Below are positions 7,637 through 33,525 of a stretch of DNA of 36,966 nt, one piece after another (positions within the stretch are counted from its first letter, which is position 1; every line of letters begins with the position of its first letter). Below the pieces are notes generated by a model. It was not told where the DNA came from. It did not search any database and saw nothing but the letters and a program-made list of their open reading frames with translations. The stretch is from positions 1 to 36,966 of the IMG/VR virus record IMGVR_UViG_3300025949_000058; one strand, 5' to 3'. Source of the DNA: a virus. The position numbers and the translations under genes are program-made.

Positions 7637-9658
7637 CTACTTGCCTCCCCACAGACTGCTGATAATCCCCAGCACGTTCTTGCTCCCCTGCTGAGTCTGA
7701 TTCGCGGCTGCCGCGGCAGCGCCAGTGCCAGCCGTCGCCGATCCAGTCCCTGCCTCGACCGCCTGCTGGCCGCCCTGGCCGTAGAACCCGCTGTAGAGGC
7801 CAGCTTGCAGTGCCGAAGACTGAAAAAGCTGGTTCAGTTCGTTGTCGATGCGCGTCTGACCGGCGCTCTGGGCGCCGCCTGCGTTCTGGAAGTAGCTGTT
7901 CAGCCAGTTGAGCCCAGTCGAGTCGACCTGACCGGCCAGCTGCCCCTGCAGCCCTAGCCGCGCCAGCGCCTGCGAATCGACCTGATTCGCGCCGGACATG
8001 GCCGCGTTGTAGCGGTTGAGCCCCTGCGAATCGACGTTGCCAGCCATGCTGTTGAGCAGGCCATAGTTGTTGTAGATGGACTGGTCGACCTGGCCGGCGC
8101 CGGTCATGGCGGAGTTGAACCGGTTCAGGCTCTGCGTGTCCTGCTGCCCGGACAGCGTGCCGAGCATGCCGATGTTGCCAAGCGTAGTCTGGTCGGACTG
8201 GCCGGCGAGGTTCGACAGCCCGGCGAGGCCTGCCAGGCGCTGCGAGTCGGACTGGCCGGCGAGGTTCCCGAGCATTCCGACGCGCGCCAGTCCGGTCTGG
8301 TCGGCAGCGCCAGCCGCGCCGAGGCCCGAGTTTAGGTAGTCGAGGGCAGAGGCCGAAGCCGCTCCAGCAAGGCTCGACTGCCCTGCCAGGCGCCCAAGCG
8401 TAGACTGGTCAGCGAGGCCGGCCATGTTCGTGATCCCTGACAGCCGCTGCATGTTCGCCGTGTCGGCCTGTCCCGTAGCCGACAGCCCCAGCTGCGCGCC
8501 CTGCATGCGGTCGCCAAACATGTTCTGATAAAGCGACTGGAGCGCGTTGCCCTGCGCCAGGCGCTCGGTGGAGGCTTGACCGGCGACGTTAGCTCCGAGT
8601 CCTAGCCGAGCCAGTGCCGCCTGCTGAGCGGAGCCCTGAAGCTGGCCTTCTTGCTGATACTGCTGCGCCCGCAGGTTCGCAGACCCGAGCGCCTGAGCCG
8701 CCAATGACCCGCCCGCCCCATACGCACCGCGAGCTGCCGCCGCCTGGTCGATGCTGTCGGACTGCTGCTTTTGCAGCATGTCGTAATAGGGATTGGTCCG
8801 ATTGAGGTCGTCGGCCGCGAACTTCTCGAGCGCGCCAGGCGTGGACAGCTGCGAACCGTTCGCCCCCAAGAAGCCTTGGGTGTAGTTCGCGCCGTTGTAC
8901 GCGTTCTGGATGCCGGGCGCGTTCACCGATAGCTCCGACGGCGCATTGGCCTGTGCCATCGCGTTGCCTAGGTTGTTCTGCGAATAGGTCGACGGGCCGT
9001 ACAGGTCCAGCGCGTGCGCCCCGAGTTGCTCACCTACGAGCGGAGCGCCGTACGGGTTGGACGCCGATAGGTTGCCGATCGCCGTGGGAGCGCCGTATGC
9101 GCCACCGTTCTGGGCGTAGTATTGCTGCGTCGCCGACGGACCCGACAGACTCCCGCCGACAGCGTTGAGCACCTGCGACGACGCTGACGGCTGGAGATAC
9201 TGCGAACCGATGGTGTCGTAAAGCTGTCGAGAGTCGCTCGGGCCGCTGAGCGTGCCGCCTGCGAGATTCAGCGCCTGAGACGTGGCGGTCGGCTGCGACA
9301 GCATGCCGGCGAGGGAGCCGTAGACGTTCTGGCTGGTCGTCGGGCCGGACAGAGCGCTGCCGGCTGCATTGAAGACCGAGCCGGATGCGGTGGGCTGGCT
9401 GAGGTAGCCGGAGTAGGCGCCGTATGCCTGCGACGACGTAGACGGCTGGCCGAGCGCGCCCGCGGCGGATCCGTAGAATTGCGACGTAGCGGTCGGCTGC
9501 TGGTACTGTGACCCGTATTGCCCGAACGCGTCTTCTAGGTACGGCGTCGGCGTCATGCCCCATGATCCTGCGGTCGCGCCAGGGTATTGCGTCGGCGCGG
9601 CTGACTGCTGGCCGATAATCTGGCCAGTTTGGAATCCGCTGGTGGGCAGCGTCGCCAC
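7637..9658 (-). CDS. Repeat-rich virion protein with two tandem repeat arrays
   Basis: The 673-residue protein starts at GTG 9658, directly after the upstream stop. It contains two arrays with exact periods. Residues 52-204 form nine 17-residue units with consensus LSxP(T/S)x(T/S)SQxxxxxxGx. Residues 342-593 form about fourteen 18-residue units with consensus GQxDxxxLxxxxxLxxxA. The spacer (205-341) and C-terminus are Ala/Gln/Gly-rich. There are almost no Lys or Cys. The 18-residue period suits five helical turns and suggests a helical solenoid or long coil. It lies among ejection-type genes and is probably an internal or tail protein. No family was recognised. Confidence 0.7.
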   Translation of the reverse strand: MATLPTSGFQTGQIIGQQSAAPTQYPGATAGSWGMTPTPYLEDAFGQYGSQYQQPTATSQFYGSAAGALGQPSTSSQAYGAYSGYLSQPTASGSVFNAAGSALSGPTTSQNVYGSLAGMLSQPTATSQALNLAGGTLSGPSDSRQLYDTIGSQYLQPSASSQVLNAVGGSLSGPSATQQYYAQNGGAYGAPTAIGNLSASNPYGAPLVGEQLGAHALDLYGPSTYSQNNLGNAMAQANAPSELSVNAPGIQNAYNGANYTQGFLGANGSQLSTPGALEKFAADDLNRTNPYYDMLQKQQSDSIDQAAAARGAYGAGGSLAAQALGSANLRAQQYQQEGQLQGSAQQAALARLGLGANVAGQASTERLAQGNALQSLYQNMFGDRMQGAQLGLSATGQADTANMQRLSGITNMAGLADQSTLGRLAGQSSLAGAASASALDYLNSGLGAAGAADQTGLARVGMLGNLAGQSDSQRLAGLAGLSNLAGQSDQTTLGNIGMLGTLSGQQDTQSLNRFNSAMTGAGQVDQSIYNNYGLLNSMAGNVDSQGLNRYNAAMSGANQVDSQALARLGLQGQLAGQVDSTGLNWLNSYFQNAGGAQSAGQTRIDNELNQLFQSSALQAGLYSGFYGQGGQQAVEAGTGSATAGTGAAAAAANQTQQGSKNVLGIISSLWGGK
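7880..8635 (-). repeat. 18-residue (54-bp) tandem repeat array, ~14 units
   Basis: Within the 673-residue protein, residues 342-593 divide exactly into 18-residue units. Clear examples are GQSDSQRLAGLAGLSNLA and GQVDSTGLNWLNSYFQNA. Gly-Gln/Asn at 1-2, Asp or Ser at 4, Leu at 8 and Ala at 18 are the best kept. The first two or three units are degenerate. DNA units are 54 bp and have diverged, so the array is old rather than recently expanded. Confidence 0.85.
9047..9505 (-). repeat. 17-residue (51-bp) tandem repeat array, 9 units
   Basis: Residues 52-204 of the same protein form nine units of exactly 17 residues, for example LSQPTASGSVFNAAGSA and LSGPTTSQNVYGSLAGM. Pro at position 4, Ser/Thr at 5-7 and Gly near 16 recur. 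Units alternate between LSQP and LSGP openings over part of the array, hinting at growth by two-unit duplication. Confidence 0.85.
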
Positions 9659-17398: not shown

Positions 17399-18289
17399 TT
17401 ACGTCGCGTTCGAGGCGTAGACGCAGCGGAAGTTCTCGGCGCCCCACATCGCGCGGAAGAAGCAGATGAAGATCGCCTGCATCGTCAACGCCACGTTGTC
17501 GCGCTCGAAGGTCGGCCGCTCCCGCCAATCCCAGTAGAACCCGTCGTCCGCGTCGGTCTGCACGTACCAGCGCGTGGTGTTCGTCAGGTAGTCGAAGGTC
17601 ATCACCTTCGTACCCTGAACGACCGACGGGTCGTTGTTCGCCGAGCCCAGCGTCTTGGCCGACTTGGACAGCTTCTCTGCGAGAACGTCGAGGGCGCTCG
17701 GCACGATGAGCTGCTTCATCATCACCGGGGCCAGCATGCCGTCGCTGCCGACAGTCGTGCGAAGCGCCGTGCGGATGTCCTCGAGCGATGCCTCGGCGAG
17801 AGCCGCCGGGACCGCCAGCGTGTTCGCCACCGTCAGTCCGTACGGCGTCAGGTGCGAAGCCGAGCAGAGCTCGACGTTGTCAGCGGTGACCGGATACGCC
17901 GAGTTGTGCGAGCGGTCGAGGAACTGCGCGAAGAGGTACTCCGGGGTCTTCTTCGCAGCTCGCCCGAGCGCCTGAGCGGGCGTCTTAAGCTGGCTGATCT
18001 TGACGTCGGTGACCGCCTCTCGGCTGATTTCCATGGCCCCTGCGAAGGTGGCGACCTGGACGCGCTTCGGAGTGCCGAGCGCGGTAGTCAGCACCTTCAT
18101 CGGGCTGTTTTCGTTCTTCTGGGTCAGCTGCTGAGCGCCGGCCCAATCGCTGAACTCGCGAATCGGCTCGTCGACCTTGTTGACCTTCGCGATCTTGGAG
18201 AACTGCTCCGCGATGTCTTCCATCGAGCTGTTGAACCACTTGCGCTCGACGGGCTCGATCGCGGCGTACCATTTTGCGATGTTTTCCAT
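17399..18289 (-). CDS. Major capsid protein, HK97-type (Mu gpT/gp34-like)
   Basis: The 296-residue protein has features shared by Mu-like and related capsid proteins: an N-terminal helical part with EISREAVTD, a SASHLTPYG loop, a NTLAVPAALAEASLED segment leading to the long spine helix, MMKQLIVPSALDVLAEKL, GSANNDPSVV and the WYVQTDADDGFYW strand. It should assemble into the icosahedral shell on the scaffold encoded at 19544-20446. It follows two decoration-type genes and precedes a beta-helix protein. Confidence 0.8.
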   Translation of the reverse strand: MENIAKWYAAIEPVERKWFNSSMEDIAEQFSKIAKVNKVDEPIREFSDWAGAQQLTQKNENSPMKVLTTALGTPKRVQVATFAGAMEISREAVTDVKISQLKTPAQALGRAAKKTPEYLFAQFLDRSHNSAYPVTADNVELCSASHLTPYGLTVANTLAVPAALAEASLEDIRTALRTTVGSDGMLAPVMMKQLIVPSALDVLAEKLSKSAKTLGSANNDPSVVQGTKVMTFDYLTNTTRWYVQTDADDGFYWDWRERPTFERDNVALTMQAIFICFFRAMWGAENFRCVYASNAT

Positions 18290-26193: not shown

Positions 26194-26285
26194 CCGCGCG
26201 GCCTCGGCTGCGACAGGCCAAGGACCATGCAGATCAGGATGGCCGCCGAGATCAGTGCGACCGGGTGAGCCTCAGCGAACGACAC
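26190..26285 (-). CDS. 31-residue membrane microprotein, first ORF of late block
   Basis: GTG at 26285 opens a 31-codon frame with one hydrophobic segment (VALISAAILICMVLGL) and a basic Pro/Arg tail. Its TGA overlaps the next ATG as ATGA, which supports its being translated. No Shine-Dalgarno is visible, and the start lies six bases from a -10-like CAATCT with TTGACA 16 bases further upstream. It may be a leaderless first cistron. Function unknown. Confidence 0.5.
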   Translation of the reverse strand: MSFAEAHPVALISAAILICMVLGLSQPRPRG

Positions 26286-26291
26286 GAGGAC

Positions 26292-26319
26292 AGATTGACA
26301 GATTGGCAATCCATGTCAA
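26292..26319 (-). promoter_or_regulatory. Late-block promoter candidate (TTGACA-16-CAATCT)
   Basis: On the minus strand, TTGACA occupies 26319-26314 and CAATCT occupies 26297-26292. The -35 is perfect; the -10 is weak. GTG of the microprotein follows after six bases. The site coincides with operator-like dyad TGACA-GAT-TGGCA (26296-26308), consistent with repression of the late genes. Confidence 0.45.
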
Positions 26320-26370
26320 GGCCACCTGCGCCGATTTGGCGGAGTCTTGTGTCAGTTTGTCAATTTGACG
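26296..26370. promoter_or_regulatory. Cluster of TGNCA-N3-TGNCA operator-like dyads
   Basis: Three matches lie between the resolvase and the late block: 26296-26308 (TGACA-GAT-TGGCA), 26350-26362 (TGTCA-GTT-TGTCA) and 26358-26370 (TGTCA-ATT-TGACG, one mismatch). The last two overlap. This is the densest group in the window and occupies the likely control region of the packaging and head genes. A resolvase crossover site is an alternative. Confidence 0.45.
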
Positions 26371-26881
26371 CTGTCGGCCTCGGCTGCTTCCGCTTCCGCG
26401 GCTCTGTCTCGACGATTCCTGGTGGGCGTCCGAGCCTATGACCAGCTGCCTTGCGTGCCGCCAGCGCCGCCTTCGTCCGCAAGCCGATCATTCGCCGCTC
26501 GAACCTGGCCACCCCGTCAAGAATGTGGCGGATGAGCTCGGACGCTGGGTCGGTCTCGTTGTTGCCATCGGCACAGACCACGGAAGCGCCCAGCTTCTCG
26601 AGCGACCTCTCGGTAAGCATGGCAACCAGAGGGTCGCGGCTGAACCGGTCCCGTTTGGCCACGACTAGGTACCGTGCCCCGAGGCGAGCCACGTCATCGG
26701 AGGCCGCCTGTAGCCCGTAGCGCTCCTCGAACGGCGCCCCGCCCGATACGATCTCGGTGTGCCAGGCTATGACTTCGATGTCGTGGGTTGCGGCGTAGGC
26801 CGAGATGGCGGCGCGCTGGGCGTCCAGGCCTAGCTGCTGCTTTTCTGTCGAGACGCGGAGCAGGGCGACGGCGGTGGTCAT
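26360..26881 (-). CDS. Serine recombinase/resolvase catalytic domain without HTH
   Basis: The 173-residue protein begins TTAVALLRVSTEKQ; Ser11 in RVSTxxQ is the recombinase nucleophile. VVAKRDRFSRD (73-83) supplies the conserved Arg and Asp residues, and the long E-helix (ARFERRMIGLRTKAAL) and GHRLGRPPG linker are present. Resolvases normally continue with a helix-turn-helix; here only an 18-residue basic tail follows. It may resolve multimers, invert DNA or be a degenerate integrase. It is co-transcribed with the lipoprotein gene (TGATG overlap). A GTG at 26884 is an alternative start. Confidence 0.85.
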   Translation of the reverse strand: MTTAVALLRVSTEKQQLGLDAQRAAISAYAATHDIEVIAWHTEIVSGGAPFEERYGLQAASDDVARLGARYLVVAKRDRFSRDPLVAMLTERSLEKLGASVVCADGNNETDPASELIRHILDGVARFERRMIGLRTKAALAARKAAGHRLGRPPGIVETEPRKRKQPRPTASN

Positions 26882-27363
26882 CACAGCCCAGCCGCCTCGA
26901 GCATGGCATAGGCCTGGTCAACCTCTCCGCCATCCGCGAAGTAGTGCCCGGTATGGCTACGATCTCCGCCTTCGCCGTGCTGGTAGCTGGCGACGTGCCC
27001 CATCTCGTGAGCCAGCGCCGAAACGCTCACCAGCCCACCGTATTGACCCGGCCAGTAGTCCGACAGGACGATTTGCCTGTCGTGCAGCGTGATGCCCTGG
27101 AGGCACCAGCCGTATTGCTTCAGCTCGAACGCATGGCCATCTCCGCAGTCGAGGGCAGCACCGCCGTACCAGTAGACCTCCGGCGCCGACGTGAGCCCGT
27201 AGAAGTCGTAGAGGACCGCGACGGCCTGCTCCGTGTTAGCCGGCCCATCTACGACCTTGGATGGGTCGACATCGACGTCGTAATCGGCAGCGTCACCGCC
27301 GCACGATGCGACCGCCAGCGCAAGGGCGACAAAACCCACCCACGAACGAAGGACGCTCGACAT
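26881..27363 (-). CDS. Second metzincin-like zinc protease lipoprotein
   Basis: The 160-residue protein has signal peptide SSVLRSWVGFVALALAVAS and lipobox Cys21. HEMGHVASYQH (119-129) matches the HExxHxxxxxH spacing of metzincins, with Ser replacing the usual Gly. Cys73 and Cys87 could form a disulphide. It is followed by the recombinase with overlapping codons. A promoter immediately upstream suggests independent expression, as for a moron gene. The envelope location is clear; protease activity and any role, such as altering the surface of the infected cell, are inferred. Confidence 0.75.
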   Translation of the reverse strand: MSSVLRSWVGFVALALAVASCGGDAADYDVDVDPSKVVDGPANTEQAVAVLYDFYGLTSAPEVYWYGGAALDCGDGHAFELKQYGWCLQGITLHDRQIVLSDYWPGQYGGLVSVSALAHEMGHVASYQHGEGGDRSHTGHYFADGGEVDQAYAMLEAAGL

Positions 27364-27370
27364 AGATACG

Positions 27371-27399
27371 GGTATATCTGAGAGACGCGCAGGCGTCAA
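27371..27399 (-). promoter_or_regulatory. Promoter TTGACG-17-TATACC for lipoprotein/recombinase pair
   Basis: On the minus strand TTGACG lies at 27399-27394 and TATACC at 27376-27371, exactly 17 bases apart. The ATG of the lipoprotein gene is only seven bases beyond the -10, so transcription probably starts at or next to the start codon. No Shine-Dalgarno is present. This is the strongest sigma-70-type promoter seen in the window. Confidence 0.65.
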
Positions 27400-27914
27400 G
27401 TACACTCTTCGTCGTTTCGCTCGCGCATGGCCATGCGGGCGATGCGGAGTTCTTCGGCCGTTAGACCATCGGAGCGACCTGCCGCCGACAGCTGCCGCTT
27501 CCGCTCCCGGTAGCGCCGCTGTCGTTCCGCAGCGCCGTGGTCCTTCTCGCGGTAGTGCATGAAGTTCAGGACTAAGAACCCGCCGTTGACCCTGACGATC
27601 CGCCGGCCCTCGAACTCCTGAGACCTCGAGCATTCCTCTGGCTCTCCCATCCTGGCCAGGGCCTCGAGGCCGCGGACTTGGTCAACCCCAGCCTGCCTCA
27701 CGATGCCAACGCTAGCCGCTTCGGCCAGTCCGTACCACCCGGGAGGCACCTTCCACCCGGTCGGCTTGAGCGAGTCCACGGCGAGCTGCGGGAGCTCCTC
27801 GCGCACCTCGTACGGGGTCGCCATGAGCAGCGCAGTCAGGAATACGTTACGCGTCTCCAGGTCAACCCAGACTGACGAATTCAGGATCCCCGTGTCCAGC
27901 TTCACGAATGCCAC
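27396..27914 (-). CDS. Phage replisome-organiser-like N-terminal domain protein
   Basis: The 172-residue protein starts at GTG 27914. Its N-terminus (KLDTGILNSSVW) and the later EFEGRRIVRVNGGFLVLNF ... YREKD segment align with 34909-35796 (KLFSGIVMSTVW ... EFEGRRIETIDRGWRLL ... KYRALR), so the two are paralogues. The family has a winged-helix-type replication initiation domain. This copy ends with a basic tail (RQRRYRERKRQ) and lacks the longer C-terminal part. It could regulate replication or bind DNA by itself. Its start overlaps an operator-like dyad. Confidence 0.65.
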   Translation of the reverse strand: MAFVKLDTGILNSSVWVDLETRNVFLTALLMATPYEVREELPQLAVDSLKPTGWKVPPGWYGLAEAASVGIVRQAGVDQVRGLEALARMGEPEECSRSQEFEGRRIVRVNGGFLVLNFMHYREKDHGAAERQRRYRERKRQLSAAGRSDGLTAEELRIARMAMRERNDEECT

Positions 27915-27915
27915 A

Positions 27916-27949
27916 GTGACAATTTGTCACGGCCGTGACGCGTTGTCAA
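27916..27949 (-). promoter_or_regulatory. Promoter/operator upstream of 27396-27914
   Basis: A near-perfect dyad GTGACA-ATT-TGTCAC (27916-27930) lies two bases before the GTG start. On the minus strand a perfect TTGACA (27949-27944), 17 bases, CAAATT (27926-27921) and six bases to GTG make a candidate leaderless promoter overlapped by the dyad. Binding of a repressor there would block both polymerase and ribosome. Confidence 0.5.
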
Positions 27950-28051
27950 CGTAGCGTAACGGCGTGAAGTGACCTATGCAGAAGCAGAAGCATACTCAGA
28001 TGGTCCAGCTGTCTCGCATGCGTTGCGTCTAACCGCGAAAGTGCGCCACTT

Positions 28052-28106
28052 CGTCAAGTACACGGCATTTGGGTGAATTTTCGAATGGGGAGGGGTGGGT
28101 GGGGAA
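28052..28106 (-). repeat. Imperfect direct repeat copy A
   Basis: This ~55-bp stretch resembles 28327-28384. Shared features on the plus strand are CGTCAAGTACAC, then CATTT/CATTC, GG-TGA-TTTTC, AATGGGG and a G-rich end. Copy A immediately follows the stop of 28107-28325. No gene begins directly behind it, so it may be a promoter relic. Confidence 0.6.
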
Positions 28107-28325
28107 TCACGTGTTCTCGCTGAAGCATCGGCAGTTAGGACGAATCTCGTCGTAGTTGCCGCACCACTGGCAAAACTGCTCAAGCACAGCCAGCCTCGCC
28201 CGTCGCGGTATTCTCCTGAGCGCCTCGAACGCCTCCTGGCAGTCACGTTGGACATCCTCGCGGCTGCCCTTGCCGGCGTTCCTGTGCAGGTAACCCTTGC
28301 GGTCCAGGACGAATAGCCAATCCAT
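28107..28325 (-). CDS. Small Cys-rich hypothetical protein
   Basis: This 72-residue protein has a DWLFVLDRKGYLH start, a helical centre and a C-terminal FCQWCGNYDEIRPNCRCF with four Cys in zinc-ribbon spacing. The start at 28325 has no ribosome-binding site but lies six bases from TGTACT with TTGAAA 16 bases upstream, as if leaderless. It is flanked by copies A and B of a direct repeat. Function unknown. Confidence 0.65.
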   Translation of the reverse strand: MDWLFVLDRKGYLHRNAGKGSREDVQRDCQEAFEALRRIPRRARLAVLEQFCQWCGNYDEIRPNCRCFSENT

Positions 28326-28326
28326 G

Positions 28327-28384
28327 CGTCAAGTACACTCCATTCTGGCTGATTTTCAATGGGGGATGGGTATAGGGGATTTTT
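28327..28384 (-). repeat. Imperfect direct repeat copy B, with promoter elements
   Basis: Copy B lies directly before the ATG at 28325. On the minus strand it contains TTGAAA (28359-28354), 16 bases, TGTACT (28337-28332), then six bases to ATG. The last 13 bases, plus-strand GCGTCAAGTACAC, recur exactly at 27393-27405 and, bar one base, in copy A. Confidence 0.6.
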
Positions 28385-28445
28385 CTCCCTCGGCTTTTTG
28401 GGGTGGGGGTGGGGGTCATCGGACGGCGACCACCGCCAGCAGCTG

Positions 28446-28480
28446 TGTAGCGTTCTGCCCCAGTCCTGTAGCGTTCTGCC
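28446..28480. repeat. Two 14-bp direct repeats spaced 21 bp
   Basis: TGTAGCGTTCTGCC occurs at 28446-28459 and again at 28467-28480, a start-to-start distance of 21 bp (two helical turns). The gap between genes 28107-28325 and 28517-28747 holds these repeats, a C-rich tract and copy B. Same-face binding by a regulator or an iteron-type role is plausible. Confidence 0.7.
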
Positions 28481-28516
28481 ACACTGAACGCCGTGACTTG
28501 ACAGAAACGCTCGTAT

Positions 28517-28747
28517 CTATCGCTGCTTGTCGCGCTCAGCAGCCACCAACCGCGCAAGTATCGCAGCCTGCCAACTACGCGCAGTTACACCGCTCTTGCG
28601 CGCGATGGCTAGCAGCTCCTCGGCATTCTGGATCTTCGCCGTAGCACGGCGCTGGGCACGGGCCAGGCGCTTGGTAGCACGGGCAGCGATGCGGCACGGG
28701 GGCAGGTTGAGCAACGCGCGGACCCGTTCCTCATACCCGTCATCCAT
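28517..28747 (-). CDS. Small basic helical protein
   Basis: The 76-residue protein is Arg/Ala-rich and helical (RATKRLARAQRRATAKI), followed by NAEELLAIARKSGVTARSWQAAIL, which could be a helix-turn-helix-like segment. The net charge is strongly positive, which suggests nucleic-acid binding. The ATG is embedded in a 16-bp palindrome that places GGAG in a four-base loop. Confidence 0.6.
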   Translation of the reverse strand: MDDGYEERVRALLNLPPCRIAARATKRLARAQRRATAKIQNAEELLAIARKSGVTARSWQAAILARLVAAERDKQR

Positions 28748-28761
28748 GACACTCCTGTCAT
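28746..28761 (-). promoter_or_regulatory. RBS hairpin ATGACA-GGAG-TGTCAT
   Basis: A perfect six-base stem encloses a GGAG loop, and the stem includes the first two bases of the ATG at 28747. In mRNA the Shine-Dalgarno would be exposed in the loop but the start partly paired. The half-sites TGACA/TGTCA also resemble the operator set, with a four-base instead of a three-base spacer. Confidence 0.55.
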
Positions 28762-28815
28762 AGCACTACGCAAACATTTCATAGTCGGTCAGTTGATAGG
28801 ACGAGTCGCGTCAAT

Positions 28816-28857
28816 TCAGCGTTCACGGCGCTCGTCTTCGGTCAGCTTCGTCGTCAT
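28816..28857 (-). CDS. 13-residue micro-ORF with good RBS
   Basis: ATG at 28857 follows GGGAG with five-base spacing and encodes MTTKLTEDERRER before TGA. The ribosome-binding site is better than those of many genes here. It may be a genuine micro-ORF, the remains of a truncated gene or a translation-coupling device. Nothing else is recognisable between 28748 and 28866. Confidence 0.35.
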   Translation of the reverse strand: MTTKLTEDERRER

Positions 28858-28866
28858 CGGTTCTCC

Positions 28867-28977
28867 CTAGTCAACGGCCACCACCTGTGATTGCCACATC
28901 CCGACTGGCCGCGCGCAGGATCCACCGTAGCGCCAGTAGTCTGACGTGGCATCCTCGACCAGCCTTAGCCCGTTCAG
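28867..28977 (-). pseudogene. Open frame with coding character but no start; possible frameshift extension
   Basis: A frame ending at TAG 28867 reads like protein (RLVEDATSDYWRYGGSCARP). It stays open upstream to about 29118 but has no ATG, GTG or TTG. It lies +1 relative to 28997-29185, so a +1 shift near the stop of that gene would join them. Alternatives are a sequencing error, a lost start, or initiation at CTG 28977. The coordinates given start at that CTG. Confidence 0.4.
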
Positions 28978-28996
28978 CCGCCTGAATGCGCGGTCC

Positions 28997-29185
28997 TCAA
29001 GTTGGTGCGGGCGCCGTGGTCGGCCTTGGTAGGAGCTCGATGTTGAAGTCGTCGAGCAAGTCTGCCAAGCGAACGGACGCCGAGATGACTGCCGTTGAGT
29101 AGCTGTCGATGATTGTCACGGTGATATCGACGACGTCACCTGAGCGCGAGATATGAATCGCTGACTTGTCCTTGCTCAGTCTCAC
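28997..29185 (-). CDS. Small beta-rich hypothetical protein
   Basis: GTG at 29185 overlaps the previous stop as GTGA and gives 62 residues with strands DVVDITVTIID and VISASVRLADLL and a Pro/Ala/Thr tail. A longer frame upstream is in frame with poor composition. It is the last clear gene of the coupled small-gene ladder before the orphan frame at 28867. Function unknown. Confidence 0.6.
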   Translation of the reverse strand: MRLSKDKSAIHISRSGDVVDITVTIIDSYSTAVISASVRLADLLDDFNIELLPRPTTAPAPT

Positions 29186-29313
29186 GGCCGCCCCGCAATC
29201 TCCCAACACACCTCGCGGCACTTCCCGAGATGGCCTGGCCGCAGGTTGCAGGTGGCGACGACCGTGCCGTCAGGCAGCTTGATGGGCGCGCCGCACGTTG
29301 GTTCAGGTGTCAT
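29182..29313 (-). CDS. 43-residue Cys-rich microprotein
   Basis: ATG 29313 overlaps the previous stop (ATGA) and TGA 29182 overlaps the next GTG. The sequence has C7, C22, H29, C33 and C37 (ATCNLRPGHLGKCREVC), a C-H-C-C pattern typical of tiny phage zinc proteins that contain a CxxxxxGHxGxC element. Coupling on both sides strongly supports it being real. Confidence 0.7.
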   Translation of the reverse strand: MTPEPTCGAPIKLPDGTVVATCNLRPGHLGKCREVCWEIAGRP

Positions 29314-29516
29314 GGATCTACCTCGCCGGCCTCGTACTCCAGCCGCATGGTGTAGCGACCGTCCTTGTGGCGCGTCTCGACGACGTCCATGCCGGCCGTC
29401 CGAAGCATCGCCGTGAGCAGGTCCATCCTGGACTTGTCCGTGACGGTCAGCTGCTTCCCCGGCTCAGGCACGAGCGTAACCTCAATGCCGCCGTCTTCCT
29501 CGTCTCCTGTCGTCAT
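29310..29516 (-). CDS. Small hypothetical protein
   Basis: The 68-residue protein has an acidic N-terminus followed by a beta-alpha-beta pattern (IEVTLVPEPG, DLLTAMLRTAGMDVVETRH, YTMRLEYEAG). The layout suggests a compact two-strand/helix fold. It is coupled by ATGA on both sides. No family was recognised. Confidence 0.65.
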   Translation of the reverse strand: MTTGDEEDGGIEVTLVPEPGKQLTVTDKSRMDLLTAMLRTAGMDVVETRHKDGRYTMRLEYEAGEVDP

Positions 29517-29728
29517 ACCCGCTCCTTTGTTGCCTGTACCATCGCCAGGAACGCGCGCCGGTTGCGCCGCCTTCCGATGACCTTGTCGAGCCTATTCTTG
29601 CAGTCCTGGCACGTCACGTTACCGATGGCCCGCGCGAACGGCAGCATGGCTCCTCGCTCTCCGCACATGGCGACGTCGATGTCTGGGCCGTTGCGGTAGT
29701 GGCGCGGGCCTGGCAGGGGAGCGGTCAC
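29513..29728 (-). CDS. Small protein with CxxC, zinc-finger type
   Basis: The 71-residue protein contains AMCGERG and VTCQDCKNRL followed by a basic helix. Many phages encode a protein with this C...TCxxC pattern, thought to be a zinc-stabilised domain of unknown function. The GTG start at 29728 overlaps the upstream stop. Confidence 0.65.
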   Translation of the reverse strand: MTAPLPGPRHYRNGPDIDVAMCGERGAMLPFARAIGNVTCQDCKNRLDKVIGRRRNRRAFLAMVQATKERV

Positions 29729-29928
29729 CTGAACACCCTGTCGGTCATGAGCAGCGATTCGAGGATGTCGGCCGCTTTGTCCATCGTGTTGTACACGTCC
29801 TCGTCAACCCATGCCCACTTCGGCCAACCATCGTAGCCAGTCATGGGCAGATCCAGGTCGCGGCACCAATCCATCGCCGCTCGTATCTCCCGCCTGTCCT
29901 TCGCGGTCAGCCGGCCGTAGTCGGTCAT
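29725..29928 (-). CDS. Small acidic hypothetical protein
   Basis: The 67-residue protein has helix RLTAKDRREIRAAMDWCR, a Trp-rich middle (YDGWPKWAWVDED) and a C-terminal helix. It is coupled by overlapping codons on both sides. The fold and role are unknown. Confidence 0.65.
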   Translation of the reverse strand: MTDYGRLTAKDRREIRAAMDWCRDLDLPMTGYDGWPKWAWVDEDVYNTMDKAADILESLLMTDRVFR

Positions 29929-30116
29929 TGCGGCTTGCTCCTGTCAATAAGCGACTGCGTCAGTCCGACCTTCCCGGTCAGCTCATCCACGGTGAACCCG
30001 TCGGCGCGTAGCAGGCGCACGATTTCGTCAGGATCAGTGACGACGCGACCGCTAGACATCGTCAGTCTCGTTATCCTCGTGGCGTTGCCTCGCTTCGCCT
30101 TCTTCTTGAGCTTCAT
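29925..30116 (-). CDS. Small basic hypothetical protein, possible HTH
   Basis: The 63-residue protein has a very basic N-terminus (MKLKKKAKRG). PDEIVRLLRADGFTVDELTGKVG follows and could form a helix-turn-helix, suggesting nucleic-acid binding. Coupled on both sides. Confidence 0.6.
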   Translation of the reverse strand: MKLKKKAKRGNATRITRLTMSSGRVVTDPDEIVRLLRADGFTVDELTGKVGLTQSLIDRSKPQ

Positions 30117-30316
30117 CGTCTCCTCCTATCGCGTTCCCACCTGCCGTCGGCGCCGCGCACCCACGGGCCGAACTCGGTTGCGAGGCTTTCGGTGTCGTCG
30201 TAGTCGATCGCGCGATAGAACCGTTCGCGGGCACTCTCGGCGCGCTGCTTCGAAGTCCACTGCCGCGGGTCCGACTCAGCCGGGTAGACGCGCCGCTTCT
30301 TAATCTGCCTGGCCAT
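30113..30316 (-). CDS. Small basic hypothetical protein, 3' side of the plus-strand island
   Basis: The 67-residue protein starts MARQIKKRRVYPAESD and is followed by charged helices (SKQRAESARERFYRAI). Its N-terminal DNA resembles that of the remnant at 31397, so it may be the displaced or second copy of one gene split by the island. The start at 30316 was chosen over the upstream frame because that overlaps the divergent promoter. Confidence 0.65.
   Translation of the reverse strand: MARQIKKRRVYPAESDPRQWTSKQRAESARERFYRAIDYDDTESLATEFGPWVRGADGRWERDRRRR
30277..30289. repeat. 13-bp direct repeat, left copy, flanking the plus-strand island
   Basis: CAGCCGGGTAGAC occurs here and at 31355-31367, bracketing the three plus-strand genes. 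Similarity continues beyond it for about ten bases (GCGCC-GCTTC in both). Both copies encode RVYPA near the start of a minus-strand ORF. Confidence 0.6.
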
Positions 30317-30328
30317 GGTTGATTTCTG

Positions 30329-30357
30329 TTGCACGTGATTCATGTCGCGAGTAGATT
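30329..30357 (+). promoter_or_regulatory. Promoter candidate TTGCAC-17-TAGATT
   Basis: In the 47-base gap between divergent genes, TTGCAC and TAGATT lie 17 bases apart on the plus strand, and ATG of 30364-30735 follows six bases later. Both hexamers are imperfect. As with other starts in this window there is no Shine-Dalgarno, suggesting a leaderless transcript. Confidence 0.45.
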
Positions 30358-30363
30358 GGTTGC

Positions 30364-30735
30364 ATGACGACGACGCAAGACCCACAGTCACACTTCGACT
30401 CTGTTATCACGCTGCTGGCGCGATGGTTCGGCGCTTCCGTAGGACTGCGTAACGCCTCGTCGGCGATGGTCACCCCGAAGTTCGGAACCGACGGCGCGCG
30501 CGGCGAGTGGAAGGCGGGTCGCGTTTGGATGGTGTCGGACAACGGCGGCGAATACAACGTCCTTCCGATCAACAGCGAGGACGAGTATCGGGCTGTGCCG
30601 TACATTGACATGAACGGCGCCGTCGACCCGATGACCGTCGCGCACCGGATATCGCTCATATTCCGCGGCGAAGATATTGATTGGTCATTCCGTATGGACG
30701 ACGACGGAATCGACTGGCTAACGGAGCAGCCGTGA
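30364..30735 (+). CDS. Hypothetical protein, first gene of plus-strand island
   Basis: The 123-residue acidic protein has helix SVITLLARWFG, then WKAGRVWMVSDNGGEY and strands IDWSFRMDDDGIDWL. It resembles no family I recognise. It is the first of three genes facing against a long minus-strand operon and is joined to the next by GTGA, so the island looks like a self-contained moron. Confidence 0.65.
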   Translation: MTTTQDPQSHFDSVITLLARWFGASVGLRNASSAMVTPKFGTDGARGEWKAGRVWMVSDNGGEYNVLPINSEDEYRAVPYIDMNGAVDPMTVAHRISLIFRGEDIDWSFRMDDDGIDWLTEQP

Positions 30736-31124
30736 GGACCTTGGCTCAACTCAAGGCGGCCTCGGCAGACCTGGAAACGATCGTCAGCATGGCAAGGGAA
30801 GACATGCGGGCCGCCGCGAGACTGGCAGCAATAGACGCAGGAGCCGACGGCTTCTACGACCACTCCGCCGCAGACGCCACCGACAGGATCGTGGCCACAA
30901 TAGAAGCGCTGCCGTTGACTTGCAGCGCTGAACCGTCCAGCTTTTCCGGAGAGTTGGCGCGCCACCCGAAAGGCTTCGGCCTCAAGGCGAAGTGTCCGTC
31001 TTGCGGAGGCACATTCGGCGTGTTCCCAGGGCGCGACGGGTGGGCGCTTCGAAGGCACGCCGGCGACAGAAGGGACGGCGGCCGGTGCTCCGGTTACTCG
31101 TCGGTATACGTGAAGCCGCTCTGA
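30732..31124 (+). CDS. Helical protein with C-terminal zinc ribbon
   Basis: GTG at 30732 overlaps the previous stop. The 130-residue protein has an N-terminal helical half (SADLETIVSMAREDMRAAA) and a C-terminal zinc-ribbon-like module, KCPSCGGTFGVF ... RRHAGDRRDGGRCSGY, with C-x2-C, His and Cys. Function unknown; nucleic-acid binding is possible. Confidence 0.65.
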   Translation: MRTLAQLKAASADLETIVSMAREDMRAAARLAAIDAGADGFYDHSAADATDRIVATIEALPLTCSAEPSSFSGELARHPKGFGLKAKCPSCGGTFGVFPGRDGWALRRHAGDRRDGGRCSGYSSVYVKPL

Positions 31125-31162
31125 CACGTATTCACCGCATCCAATTGCACGGAGGAATGACC

Positions 31163-31354
31163 ATGCCGAAGCGAAAGCCGGGGCACGGAGGCCGCCGCCC
31201 CGGTGCAGGCCGTCCCGTATCGACGGGTGCAGGCGCGAACCGCATCGTGTTCCGGGTGTCAGATGCCCAGCTAATGGAACTCGTGACAGAGGCCGCGCGC
31301 CTTGGGCTTCCGAGCGCCGACCTGGCGGCCAAGCGACGCGTATTCCCGTCTTGA
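31163..31354 (+). CDS. Small basic regulator-like protein (ribbon-helix-helix candidate)
   Basis: The 63-residue protein begins PKRKPGHGGRRPGAGRPVS, an AT-hook-like basic arm seen in many phage proteins. A strand-helix follows (RIVFRVSDAQLMELVTEAARLG), suiting a ribbon-helix-helix or similar dimeric DNA binder. GGAGG seven bases before the ATG at 31163 decides the start over the in-frame ATG at 31157. It is the last island gene and a candidate for the protein that binds the TGNCA dyads, though nothing ties them directly. Confidence 0.55.
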   Translation: MPKRKPGHGGRRPGAGRPVSTGAGANRIVFRVSDAQLMELVTEAARLGLPSADLAAKRRVFPS

Positions 31355-31397
31355 CAGCCGGGTAGACCCGCGCCGGCTTCGCGCGCTTGGCCTTCAC
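31338..31397 (-). pseudogene. Remnant 5' end of a minus-strand gene at the island boundary
   Basis: ATG at 31397 overlaps the stop of 31394-31606 as ATGA, the pattern of a true start. The first ~20 residues (KAKRAKPARVYPAVKTGI) look real and parallel MARQIKKRRVYPAES at 30316. Beyond that the frame runs antisense to the island genes with implausible composition. I read it as a gene cut off by the island; the frame stays open to 30300 but is unlikely to be functional there. Confidence 0.45.
31355..31367. repeat. 13-bp direct repeat, right copy, flanking the plus-strand island
   Basis: This is the second CAGCCGGGTAGAC, one base beyond the stop of the last island gene. Together with 30277-30289 it frames the 1.06-kb insert. 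Perfect over 13 bp, then similar with small gaps. Confidence 0.6.
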
Positions 31398-31606
31398 GGC
31401 AGTTTCCGTTCCTGCCTGGCTCGCATGTATCCCTCGCGCGGATACAGCTTCATCCTGATATCGAAGATGACCATGGCGTACCTGTTACCGAGCTTCACCA
31501 GTGCTTCCTCGGCGTCTTGGAGCAGCTTGATCTCTGCCGCAAGCTCCTCGTCTGACCACTCCATGCGCTCTTTGCCGTGATCAAACGGCCTGGTCTCGTC
31601 GCTCAT
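31394..31606 (-). CDS. Small helical hypothetical protein
   Basis: The 70-residue protein has a long charged helix (WSDEELAAEIKLLQDAEEALVKLG) and a YAMVIFDIRMKLYPREG strand. It starts in an ATGA overlap at 31606. Downstream of it the ladder is broken by the plus-strand island. Function unknown. Confidence 0.65.
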   Translation of the reverse strand: MSDETRPFDHGKERMEWSDEELAAEIKLLQDAEEALVKLGNRYAMVIFDIRMKLYPREGYMRARQERKLP

Positions 31607-31923
31607 TTCGCCATCTCCCGTCTCCGCGTCACCGTCGTCTCGTTGGCCGCGGTGTCGTCGTCGATGAGCGCGTAGAGGCGGCGCTCGCGGATGGCGATCG
31701 TGTTCGCGCACATCACCGTGGACCCGTTGCTAATCGCGGTCCTGATCCACCCGCGACATATCTTGTGATCAGCCCTCGGATAGCATGGCGTCTGGTCGTC
31801 CTCCCTTGACAGCAGCACGAAGCGCTCGTTCCTGCCTGTAGATTTGCACGGCCGCACTTCGAGGCACATGCCCACGTGCAACTGCGCCTCGTCCGTCACC
31901 AGCTTCCACAGGTCGCGCGTCAT
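31603..31923 (-). CDS. Hypothetical protein
   Basis: The 106-residue protein contains VGMCLEVRPCKSTGRNERFVLL, a small beta-type segment, and a Cys-containing middle (TPCYPRADHKICRGW). The ATG at 31923 is coupled to the stop of the preceding gene. No family was recognised. Confidence 0.65.
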   Translation of the reverse strand: MTRDLWKLVTDEAQLHVGMCLEVRPCKSTGRNERFVLLSREDDQTPCYPRADHKICRGWIRTAISNGSTVMCANTIAIRERRLYALIDDDTAANETTVTRRREMAK

Positions 31924-32216
31924 GGCTGGTCCTCCTCGGTCGGCCCTGTCCACGGGACCCAGCCATATCCGTCGACCACCATCCCCCATCGGAACCACCG
32001 GCCCGACTTGTCGCGCATGCAGGCGTATCCGTCGATGTCCTTGACGATAATCGGCTCCTCCGCCTCCCCCGCCAGCCCGTCGAGCGCCAGGCGTTCGACT
32101 CGCTTGAAGATGTCAATGCGATTGCTACAGAACTCGTGCTTGCAGTTGTCCTCCATGCAGTCACGCGCGTGGCTGACGTCCGCGAGCAACCGGAGAAGTG
32201 CGTCCGCGGCGGTCAT
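31920..32216 (-). CDS. Hypothetical protein with Cys/His cluster
   Basis: The 98-residue protein has helix LLRLLADVSHARDCMEDNC, then KHEFCSNRIDIF (Cys/His cluster ~20-30) and a C-terminal beta part with RWFRWGMVVDGYGW. The cluster could hold zinc. It is preceded by a chain of minimal ORFs. Function unknown. Confidence 0.65.
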   Translation of the reverse strand: MTAADALLRLLADVSHARDCMEDNCKHEFCSNRIDIFKRVERLALDGLAGEAEEPIIVKDIDGYACMRDKSGRWFRWGMVVDGYGWVPWTGPTEEDQP

Positions 32217-32230
32217 TTGAACACCTTCAT
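32213..32230 (-). other. Five-codon minicistron (MKVFK)
   Basis: ATG 32230 overlaps the stop of the 25-residue ORF, and its TGA overlaps the ATG at 32216. It is probably a translation-coupling bridge rather than a functional peptide, but it fits the overlap pattern exactly on both sides. Confidence 0.35.
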
Positions 32231-32304
32231 CGTGAGCACAGATACGGCTTCGCGTTCAACCACGCCCGCAGCGCTCGGGCCCTCTGTTTACGTCTTACGC
32301 TCAT
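32227..32304 (-). CDS. 25-residue basic micro-ORF
   Basis: ATG at 32304 overlaps the stop of the membrane microprotein (ATGA), and its TGA overlaps the next minicistron. The sequence MSVRRKQRARALRAW is highly basic. It may be a short nucleic-acid-binding peptide or the remainder of a longer gene. Confidence 0.45.
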   Translation of the reverse strand: MSVRRKQRARALRAWLNAKPYLCSR

Positions 32305-32402
32305 CGCTTCCTCATCACGCCAGCGATCGCGAAGCAGATCACGGCAATCAAGAACCCGACCGGGACGCCATAAACCAGCCCCAGAATGTATCCGTCTCTC
32401 AC
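32301..32402 (-). CDS. 33-residue membrane microprotein
   Basis: GTG at 32402 overlaps the upstream stop. The ORF encodes one hydrophobic segment (YILGLVYGVPVGFLIAVICF) with a RKR end, a typical single-pass topology with a cytoplasmic basic tail. It is coupled on both sides. Possible roles include superinfection control or toxin-like activity; nothing specific is visible. Confidence 0.55.
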   Translation of the reverse strand: MRDGYILGLVYGVPVGFLIAVICFAIAGVMRKR

Positions 32403-32605
32403 TTCGTCCTCGCTTTCTTCGGCGCGCGTGGCTCGTCGTCGCATTGAACGTCGGTCGGGTCGTCCCAGTCGACAAGCTCATCCTGGCGCTCGTAAATCCA
32501 CTTGCCAGGATTCTTGAACGCTCGAATGGCGTCCTCGCGCGTGTCGGCCTCGACGGTCGCCACGGTGTGGTGCGTCGTCCTGATCCTTGCCGTCCACTGT
32601 GCCAT
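32399..32605 (-). CDS. Small hypothetical protein
   Basis: The 68-residue protein begins MAQWTARIRTTHHTVATVEADT, a beta-hairpin-like start followed by a helix (REDAIRAFKN) and an acidic/basic tail. Similar short proteins are frequent in phage early operons. Start chosen at 32605 because it overlaps the preceding stop (TGATG). Confidence 0.65.
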   Translation of the reverse strand: MAQWTARIRTTHHTVATVEADTREDAIRAFKNPGKWIYERQDELVDWDDPTDVQCDDEPRAPKKARTK

Positions 32606-32796
32606 CACCGCTTCCCTTTCTTCGGCGCGCGAGTTGCGGCGTCGATGGCTCGCAGGGCGTTTGTCTCGATCATTCCGAGCTGGTGATAGATGTCGATAAG
32701 GTGCGGCGCGATCAGCCGGCGAATCCGTCGCCGCTCGCGTGCTGCGCCAGCTGCAAGCCCAACAACGAACGCTGTGCGTTCCTCGGTGTAGCTCAT
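32605..32796 (-). CDS. Small helical hypothetical protein
   Basis: The 63-residue protein has a hydrophobic helix (TAFVVGLAAGAA) leading into RERRRIRRLI and a central helix, ending in a basic tail. The first part could be membrane-associated. Coupled by ATGA upstream and TGATG downstream. Confidence 0.6.
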   Translation of the reverse strand: MSYTEERTAFVVGLAAGAARERRRIRRLIAPHLIDIYHQLGMIETNALRAIDAATRAPKKGKR

Positions 32797-33011
32797 AGTC
32801 CCGCCTCGTCGATGGCTTTGTCGAGCCTGTCTCTGGCAAGCGTGTCGTCGGGCTCAGCGCGAACGAACATAACCGCCGCCTGCGCGACCTTGCGCAACGC
32901 CAGCAGTTCGCGGCGTATTACATCGCCAAGTTGCCGCGACCTACCGTCGGAGACGTCTACGGTGCATATCGCGGTCATTCGCTCCAAGTCCTCGTCAGAA
33001 ACGCGCGTCAT
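32793..33011 (-). CDS. Small helical hypothetical protein
   Basis: The 72-residue protein is mostly helix (SDEDLERMTAI, RELLALRKVAQAAVMFVRAE). ATG at 33011 overlaps the stop of the preceding Cys-rich microprotein, ruling out the much longer upstream frame. Function unknown. Confidence 0.65.
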   Translation of the reverse strand: MTRVSDEDLERMTAICTVDVSDGRSRQLGDVIRRELLALRKVAQAAVMFVRAEPDDTLARDRLDKAIDEAGL

Positions 33012-33091
33012 TTGTCGCCCCTCCCGCACCAGTGGCACTGACCGAATAGGCTGTACCAATGCCATTCGCCGCCACGCGAACATGGCGTCAT
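33008..33091 (-). CDS. 27-residue Cys/His microprotein
   Basis: ATG 33091 overlaps the upstream stop and TGA 33008 overlaps the next ATG. The sequence contains FGQCHWCGRGD, a Cys-x2-Cys with His, plus an N-terminal Cys and His. It is below the size that gene finders usually report, but coupling on both sides and composition support it. It resembles the end of the 54-residue protein at 114-278 (CCWCGKGF). Confidence 0.6.
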   Translation of the reverse strand: MTPCSRGGEWHWYSLFGQCHWCGRGDK

Positions 33092-33525
33092 CGCTCCAGC
33101 TCCTCGAAGTCGGGCATGTCGTCGTAGTCGGCACCGTCGAGCGCGAGGCTTTCGGCGATAGCGGATCCGGCGGTCGGCTCAAGCAACATGTCCACCACGC
33201 GCCAGCGGCAGTATTCCCAGCACACGACAGTCGGACCGTAGTCGCGACAGTGACGTGCCGCCTCCATGAACAGCCGCCGCTCGTCGTCGGTTGGGGGCTG
33301 CCAGGTGACACGGTAGCGGCCGCCATTCCACAAATGAATCCCGCCCTGCCATCTCGCTCCTGGGGCGTCGTACGCATCTGGACGATTCGCGAGAACGACG
33401 CCTTCAAATCCATCGCCCGAATCGCCTGGCCATGGCGCGGTCTCCAAGCTAGTTATTGCGATGTCAGCACCCAAAAAATGCACCTGCATGCCGACGCGCG
33501 GCGGGATGTCCTTGCTCGATTTCAT
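33088..33525 (-). CDS. Hypothetical protein
   Basis: The 145-residue protein begins with a beta-rich domain (RVGMQVHFLGADIAITSL; YRVTWQPP). A helical stretch with CRDYGPTVVCWEYCRW follows, and an acidic C-terminus. The three nearby Cys could bind metal. It shares a base with the upstream stop. No family was recognised. Confidence 0.65.
   Translation of the reverse strand: MKSSKDIPPRVGMQVHFLGADIAITSLETAPWPGDSGDGFEGVVLANRPDAYDAPGARWQGGIHLWNGGRYRVTWQPPTDDERRLFMEAARHCRDYGPTVVCWEYCRWRVVDMLLEPTAGSAIAESLALDGADYDDMPDFEELER

Follow-up and report, generated by a model that had tools for sequence, protein, structure and literature searches.

In the soil-phage DNA analysed here (a 36,966-base virus record, the whole of which we call the window), two similar sequences of about 45–57 bp, elements A and B, are best read as copies of a gene boundary that bracket a slot for a single accessory gene, the content of the slot being swapped by ordinary recombination and the core of each element acting as a regulatory site. 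We put the probability of this reading at roughly 65%. The boundary element is laid out as a C-tract, AAAAT, 13 nt and the sequence GTGTACTTGAC, and the slot appears to sit between the early genes and the late genes; the terminase, the portal and the other long ORFs of the window are carried by the minus strand.

Element B (28328-28380, minus strand) comprises a C-tract with a TATACC-like hexamer (28369-28374), AAAAT (28352-28356), 13 nt and the core GTGTACTTGAC (28328-28338). It adjoins the slot gene, a 72-aa ORF (28107-28325, minus strand), at its start codon: 2 nt separate the core from the ATG at 28325. Element A (28053-28109, minus strand) starts at the TGA of the same gene (TGATTCCCC) and continues with a C-tract, AAAAT, 13 nt and the core (28053-28063). 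A first-pass annotation of this DNA had noticed that A follows that stop with no gene behind it, and indeed the TGA precedes A and no ORF of at least 40 aa begins within the next 120 nt. The same annotation described repeats of ~55 bp flanking 28107-28325; the repeats are there, but this length is slightly too long, since A (28052-28096) and B (28327-28371) align as direct repeats with 76% identity over 45 ungapped nt, and a gapped alignment spans ~47 columns. A comparison with shuffled sequence shows the similarity to be real: A and B score 46 in a local alignment, and none of 2,000 dinucleotide shuffles exceeded 30. A chance likeness between C/G-rich intergenic stretches, for which the skewed C/G tracts of both copies might speak, is refuted by these shuffles and by the retention of the core near the late genes of relatives with only ~70% terminase identity, and its probability is negligible. 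The purine-rich half that had also been described exists as C/G tracts, but its exact form is lost in the relatives searched. A G-quadruplex-like run at A (28087-28104) was likewise discarded as a candidate, as it is not retained in the relatives searched.

Written in the sense of transcription, the 11-base core is GTGTACTTGAC, and the window has exactly three copies of it, each on the minus strand. Its 13-base form, GCGTCAAGTACAC, is exact at 27393, as claimed earlier, and at 28326; at 28051 it has one mismatch. All remaining matches listed for the window, 21 of 24, have 3 mismatches. When up to one mismatch is allowed, 3, 5 and 3 copies are found in G001, G014 and G015, respectively, all in the late-gene sense, together with two copies in each of G008 and G010 (one sense each) and two per strand in G009; nine records in a set of 14 searched have no core at this threshold, and no record had more than one match to the reversed pattern used as a control. 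The terminases of G008, G009 and G010 are 68-70% identical, and the core is kept in all three. Two cores lie outside the junction region (G014 at 17559, G009 at 8217), and the second core of G008 and that of G010 may fall within a reading frame.

The relatives, coded G001, G008-G010, G012, G014 and G015, include as the closest G001 (IMGVR_UViG_3300025942_000005, 46,742 bases), whose structural region is 98-99% identical to the window. The two records are circularly permuted, the first and last bases of G001 both mapping near window position 21.8 kb with an overlap of ~99 bases. Since G001 encodes a tyrosine integrase, an SSB and a DnaB-like helicase, the phage group is probably temperate. Among 50 stretches that match AAAATN{12,15}GTGTACTTGAC, contigs L036, L040, L052 and L054 were accepted as relatives by their context, within the 30 highest-GC matches listed. 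The pattern GCGTCAAGTACACTCCA returned three contigs from viral_contigs, all unrelated, and a search with AGAAAAATCCCCTATACCC returned one more, L085, which is also unrelated. No close relative and no host emerged when the phage collection was searched with DNA and genome_contigs with the terminase, and Rfam and tRNA scans gave no matches. Contigs L088 (G009, 1-70) and L103 (G010, 1-54) start at long G runs just upstream of a B-like element, which is probably where assembly broke.

The evidence for a one-gene slot comes from the four close genomes in which it is visible (the window, G001, G014 and G015), among which a change of content may be read as loss or as gain. The 72-aa ORF of the window is coding-like (codon-position GC 0.59/0.45/0.77) and has no relatives in viral_contigs or the phage collection. 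In G001 it is replaced by a different, unrelated 64-aa ORF that starts directly at the core, within flanks that are 95-96% identical to those of the window, and in G014 by a 90-aa ORF that matches Lar_restr_allev (restriction alleviation, E 3.8e-9). Thus, the suggestion that the repeats delimit a single-gene cassette is supported: three genomes hold three unrelated ORFs between B and A, so that relatives exist with the repeats and another gene in the slot (G001, G014), and the fourth, G015, has no gene but a single element between the shared upstream DNA and the DNA found behind A in G014. This single element is a B/A hybrid, B-like on its left and A-like on its right. As compared with the elements of G014, 24 of its left 26 nt match B and 11 match A, and of its right 34 nt 33 match A and 25 match B; the switch is located upstream of AAAAT, ~25-30 nt before the end of the core.

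The borders of the slot are precise. The left side of B is kept in G001, G014 and G015 up to the last base of the core or 1-4 nt past it, and TGATTCCCC together with element A is found again in G001 and G014, there following unrelated slot genes. Because the ATG lies 0 or 2 nt past the B core and the stop TGA is followed by TTCCCC in all three filled slots, the exchange is gene-exact. Among 36 alignment 3′ ends, ten lie no more than 2 nt from a core end, where 0.14 would be expected under uniform placement; the 36 ends stem from the six pairs of four genomes, which are non-independent, and ends at the segment limit were excluded.

Further cassette borders in the same region are also marked by the core. 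Element C (27361-27405, minus strand) contains the core (27395-27405), TTGACG (27394-27399), a spacer of 17 nt, TATACC (27371-27376), 7 nt and an ATG (27361-27363), and its core overlaps the end of the ORF 27396-27914, whose TGA it includes. The earlier statement that the core at 27393 forms both a -35 and an ORF end is therefore borne out at the level of layout. A version of this arrangement, 82% identical over 55 nt, stands before a different gene in G014. Also in G014, an extra core, D, precedes an 85-aa ORF, and G014 and G015 are the same up to the last base of D and then diverge. The 172-aa gene at 27396-27914 is also present in G012, a record of 14,363 bases that lacks the core; neither this gene nor the slot ORFs had matches in the phage collection. 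Just before the start of the gene (window 27910-27955) is an operator-like palindrome, GTGACAATTTGTCAC, beside a TTGACA. The ORF at window 26881-27363, present in G001 and G015, has a lipobox-like start and, by eye, an HExxH motif; it has no Pfam or PHROG match and is possibly a phage lipoprotein metalloprotease.

As to the role of the core, the first-pass annotation regarded the repeats as promoter modules. This idea is not supported: a consensus sigma-70 scan of 26200-29000 called no promoter, the spacing between the core and the start codon that follows varies (0 to 31 nt in clear cases, more in others), and no gene stands immediately behind A. When the elements were folded as RNA, no signal emerged either (z-scores between -0.61 and +1.00 for six stretches). 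The core is nevertheless probably a regulatory site, judging from its sequence setting: it keeps a single orientation in the close genomes, it is positioned before unrelated genes, and at C it coincides with a -35-like hexamer. It may be a directional site (an operator, a stoperator-like site or part of a promoter) that would serve whichever gene comes next, and at C this putative role would involve the -35-like TTGACG, 17 nt before the -10-like TATACC and a leaderless ATG.

Insertions bounded by direct repeats are not confined to the B/A slot of the window. Using five genomes, we have collected the clean insertions of the early region and of the junction region, where clean means a net gain of at least 100 nt in one genome with no more than 30 nt unaligned in the other. 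They make up 31 ordered-pair rows, of which 10 have terminal direct repeats of at least 15 nt that the empty relative carries singly; direct repeats of at least 8 nt are present in 12-13. The rows correspond, by a hand count, to ~20 distinct places, and repeats of at least 15 nt are found at 5 of these as against 2 of 150 simulated random deletions (Fisher p 2.5e-4); in the simulation, repeats of at least 8 nt occurred in 5/150. Since ~15 of the 20 places are without a repeat of at least 15 nt, repeat-bounded exchange is one route among others. In addition to such insertions, each pair shows 5 to 15 replacement gaps.

A second slot of the same architecture (32399-32650, minus strand) has a 32-nt direct repeat (32613-32644 and 32410-32441) around a 171-nt insertion, and is represented by a single copy with no insertion in G001, G014, G015 and G012. 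At a third (30255-31398, minus strand), a 17-nt direct repeat (31355 and 30293) encloses a 1,061-nt insertion with a 365-aa ORF; a single copy is present in G014 and G012, and another insertion, of 758 nt, in G001. Further clear repeat-bounded insertions are those at 1507/1707 in G015 (38 nt) and at the B/A slot in G014 (44 nt). The repeats at the other slots differ in sequence from A and B. When window 29000-33525 is compared with four relatives, many segments of 28-136 nt with 82-100% identity are seen, often at the starts or ends of genes and spaced by diverged or unrelated sequence.

How the slot changes its content can be considered in the light of these data. A small serine recombinase is encoded at 26360-26884 (minus strand), and one might suppose that it recognises the core and moves single genes in an integron-like manner. 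Its gene is nearby in the window, in G001 and in G014, where it is conserved, the junctions fall exactly at the 3′ end of the core, and the cassettes consist of one gene, all of which would favour such a site-specific system. However, the G015 hybrid switches outside the core, upstream of AAAAT, the other slots carry other repeats, and none of A, B and C has a dyad in its core. The match of the recombinase to its PHROG profile also ends at position 163 of 254, so that the protein may be without the usual C-terminal DNA-binding domain. We therefore hold this explanation to be very unlikely, and an integron-like system with one fixed junction point in a common site was rejected on account of the hybrid junction upstream of the core and the differing repeats of other slots. 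Homologous recombination at gene-boundary sequences fits better, for the same two reasons.

The other alternative is that A, B and C are merely conserved regulatory sites, and that illegitimate recombination followed by selection for functional joints shaped the region without the repeats taking part. Wherever a conserved element stands before different genes, alignments must stop at its edge, and the majority of clean-insertion places, which have no repeat of at least 15 nt, would be compatible with such a process. On the other hand, the empty slot of G015 holds a single hybrid element and no more, which is the expected product of recombination of B with A, and repeat-bounded insertions exceed those in simulated deletions. 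We consider this alternative unlikely, if less so than the site-specific one. In the preferred reading, the slot gene would be exchanged or lost when shared boundary sequences recombine, by the homologous or the single-strand-annealing route, and selection would hold genes and signals in register. Neither a RecT nor an exonuclease was identified among the proteins scanned, which speaks against this reading. For the further notion, that the repeats are mobile by themselves, the comparison gave no support.

Several known systems resemble the elements in part. PeSLs are promoter plus stem-loop (promoter-terminator) motifs at the gene borders of T4-like phages, tied to accessory-gene shuffling. 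Among regulatory cassettes they come nearest, sharing with A and B a regulatory element at gene borders in connection with accessory-gene shuffling. Identity with PeSLs is rejected, as A and B are without a stem-loop signal (z -0.61 to +1.00, six stretches) and without a consensus promoter, and the phage is not T4-like. The start-associated sequences (SAS/ESAS) of Cluster K mycobacteriophages, with the consensus GGGATAGGAGCCC right before start codons, are, according to PMC3203893, likewise short and asymmetric, placed before the starts of unrelated genes mostly in one orientation, with some copies extended upstream; the present element has fewer copies, and its upstream part is not an inverted repeat. 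Even with 2 mismatches tolerated, GGGATAGGAGCCC is matched nowhere in the window or the G001 pieces, so the two are not identical. Stoperators of Cluster A mycobacteriophages are 13-bp asymmetric one-way sites numbering 23-36 per genome, according to PMC3029335 and PMC9283540. A stoperator is bound by a monomeric immunity repressor and blocks transcription depending on its orientation. Stoperators share with the core its asymmetry, its one orientation relative to transcription, its location between genes or overlapping gene ends, and the letters GTCAAG, whereas the close genomes have 3-5 cores (at most 1 mismatch) and the consensus otherwise differs. Allowing up to 2 mismatches on both strands of the window and the G001 pieces, the L5 and Bxb1 consensus sequences gave 7 and 4 scattered matches, respectively, which speaks against identity; neither stoperator nor SAS matches cluster there, and no repressor was identified.

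The closest parallel is with phage module-boundary sequences. In PMC3029335, boundary sequences are a proposed route to phage mosaicism that cannot be found at most borders, and one boundary-sequence exchange or deletion event is reported, in Cluster I mycobacteriophages. There, as here, a short shared border sequence offers a place where general recombination could swap or delete modules, and a short homologous sequence is indeed found at the border of exchanged modules in our genomes. In contrast to that example, the present slot is gene-exact and is seen filled, refilled and as an empty hybrid, and its element has a directional, regulatory-looking core. The A/B slot is a clear instance of this proposed and seldom documented kind of phage boundary sequence.

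It has long been asked whether phage mosaicism arises by boundary-sequence recombination or by illegitimate joining, and the slot shows how bacterial viruses can trade genes singly. As one slot has been seen with three genes and as an empty hybrid, and as a single genome has several slots, the boundary model is testable by crosses. The match of one slot gene to the Lar family suggests that slots may turn over anti-defence genes. A broader and rather improbable extension is that the early/late junction and the early region form a network of dedicated docking slots for single genes, every slot having a boundary sequence of its own that is kept for exchange, the GTGTACTTGAC element both regulating and exchanging its slot; were this so, accessory genes such as those for anti-restriction would be swapped from start codon to stop codon.

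The surroundings of the slot show some further features. Behind A, on the minus strand of L036 (3765-4142), a 125-aa ORF is convergent with the late genes; its DNA is 93% identical between G014 and G015, and it is absent from the window and G001. Upstream of B, a 76-aa basic protein (28517-28747, minus strand) is kept in the four close genomes, and its model predicts three helices (pLDDT 87). Two dyad-like 17-bp sites, TGTGGC-N5-GCTACA and TGGGGC-N5-GCTACA, lie 21 bp apart at 28446-28483 (minus strand), and such pairs are equally placed upstream of B in G001, G014 and G015. In G014 and G015, more dyad-like sites precede the 76-aa gene (L036 2935-3000 and L040 3865), inverted with respect to those before B.
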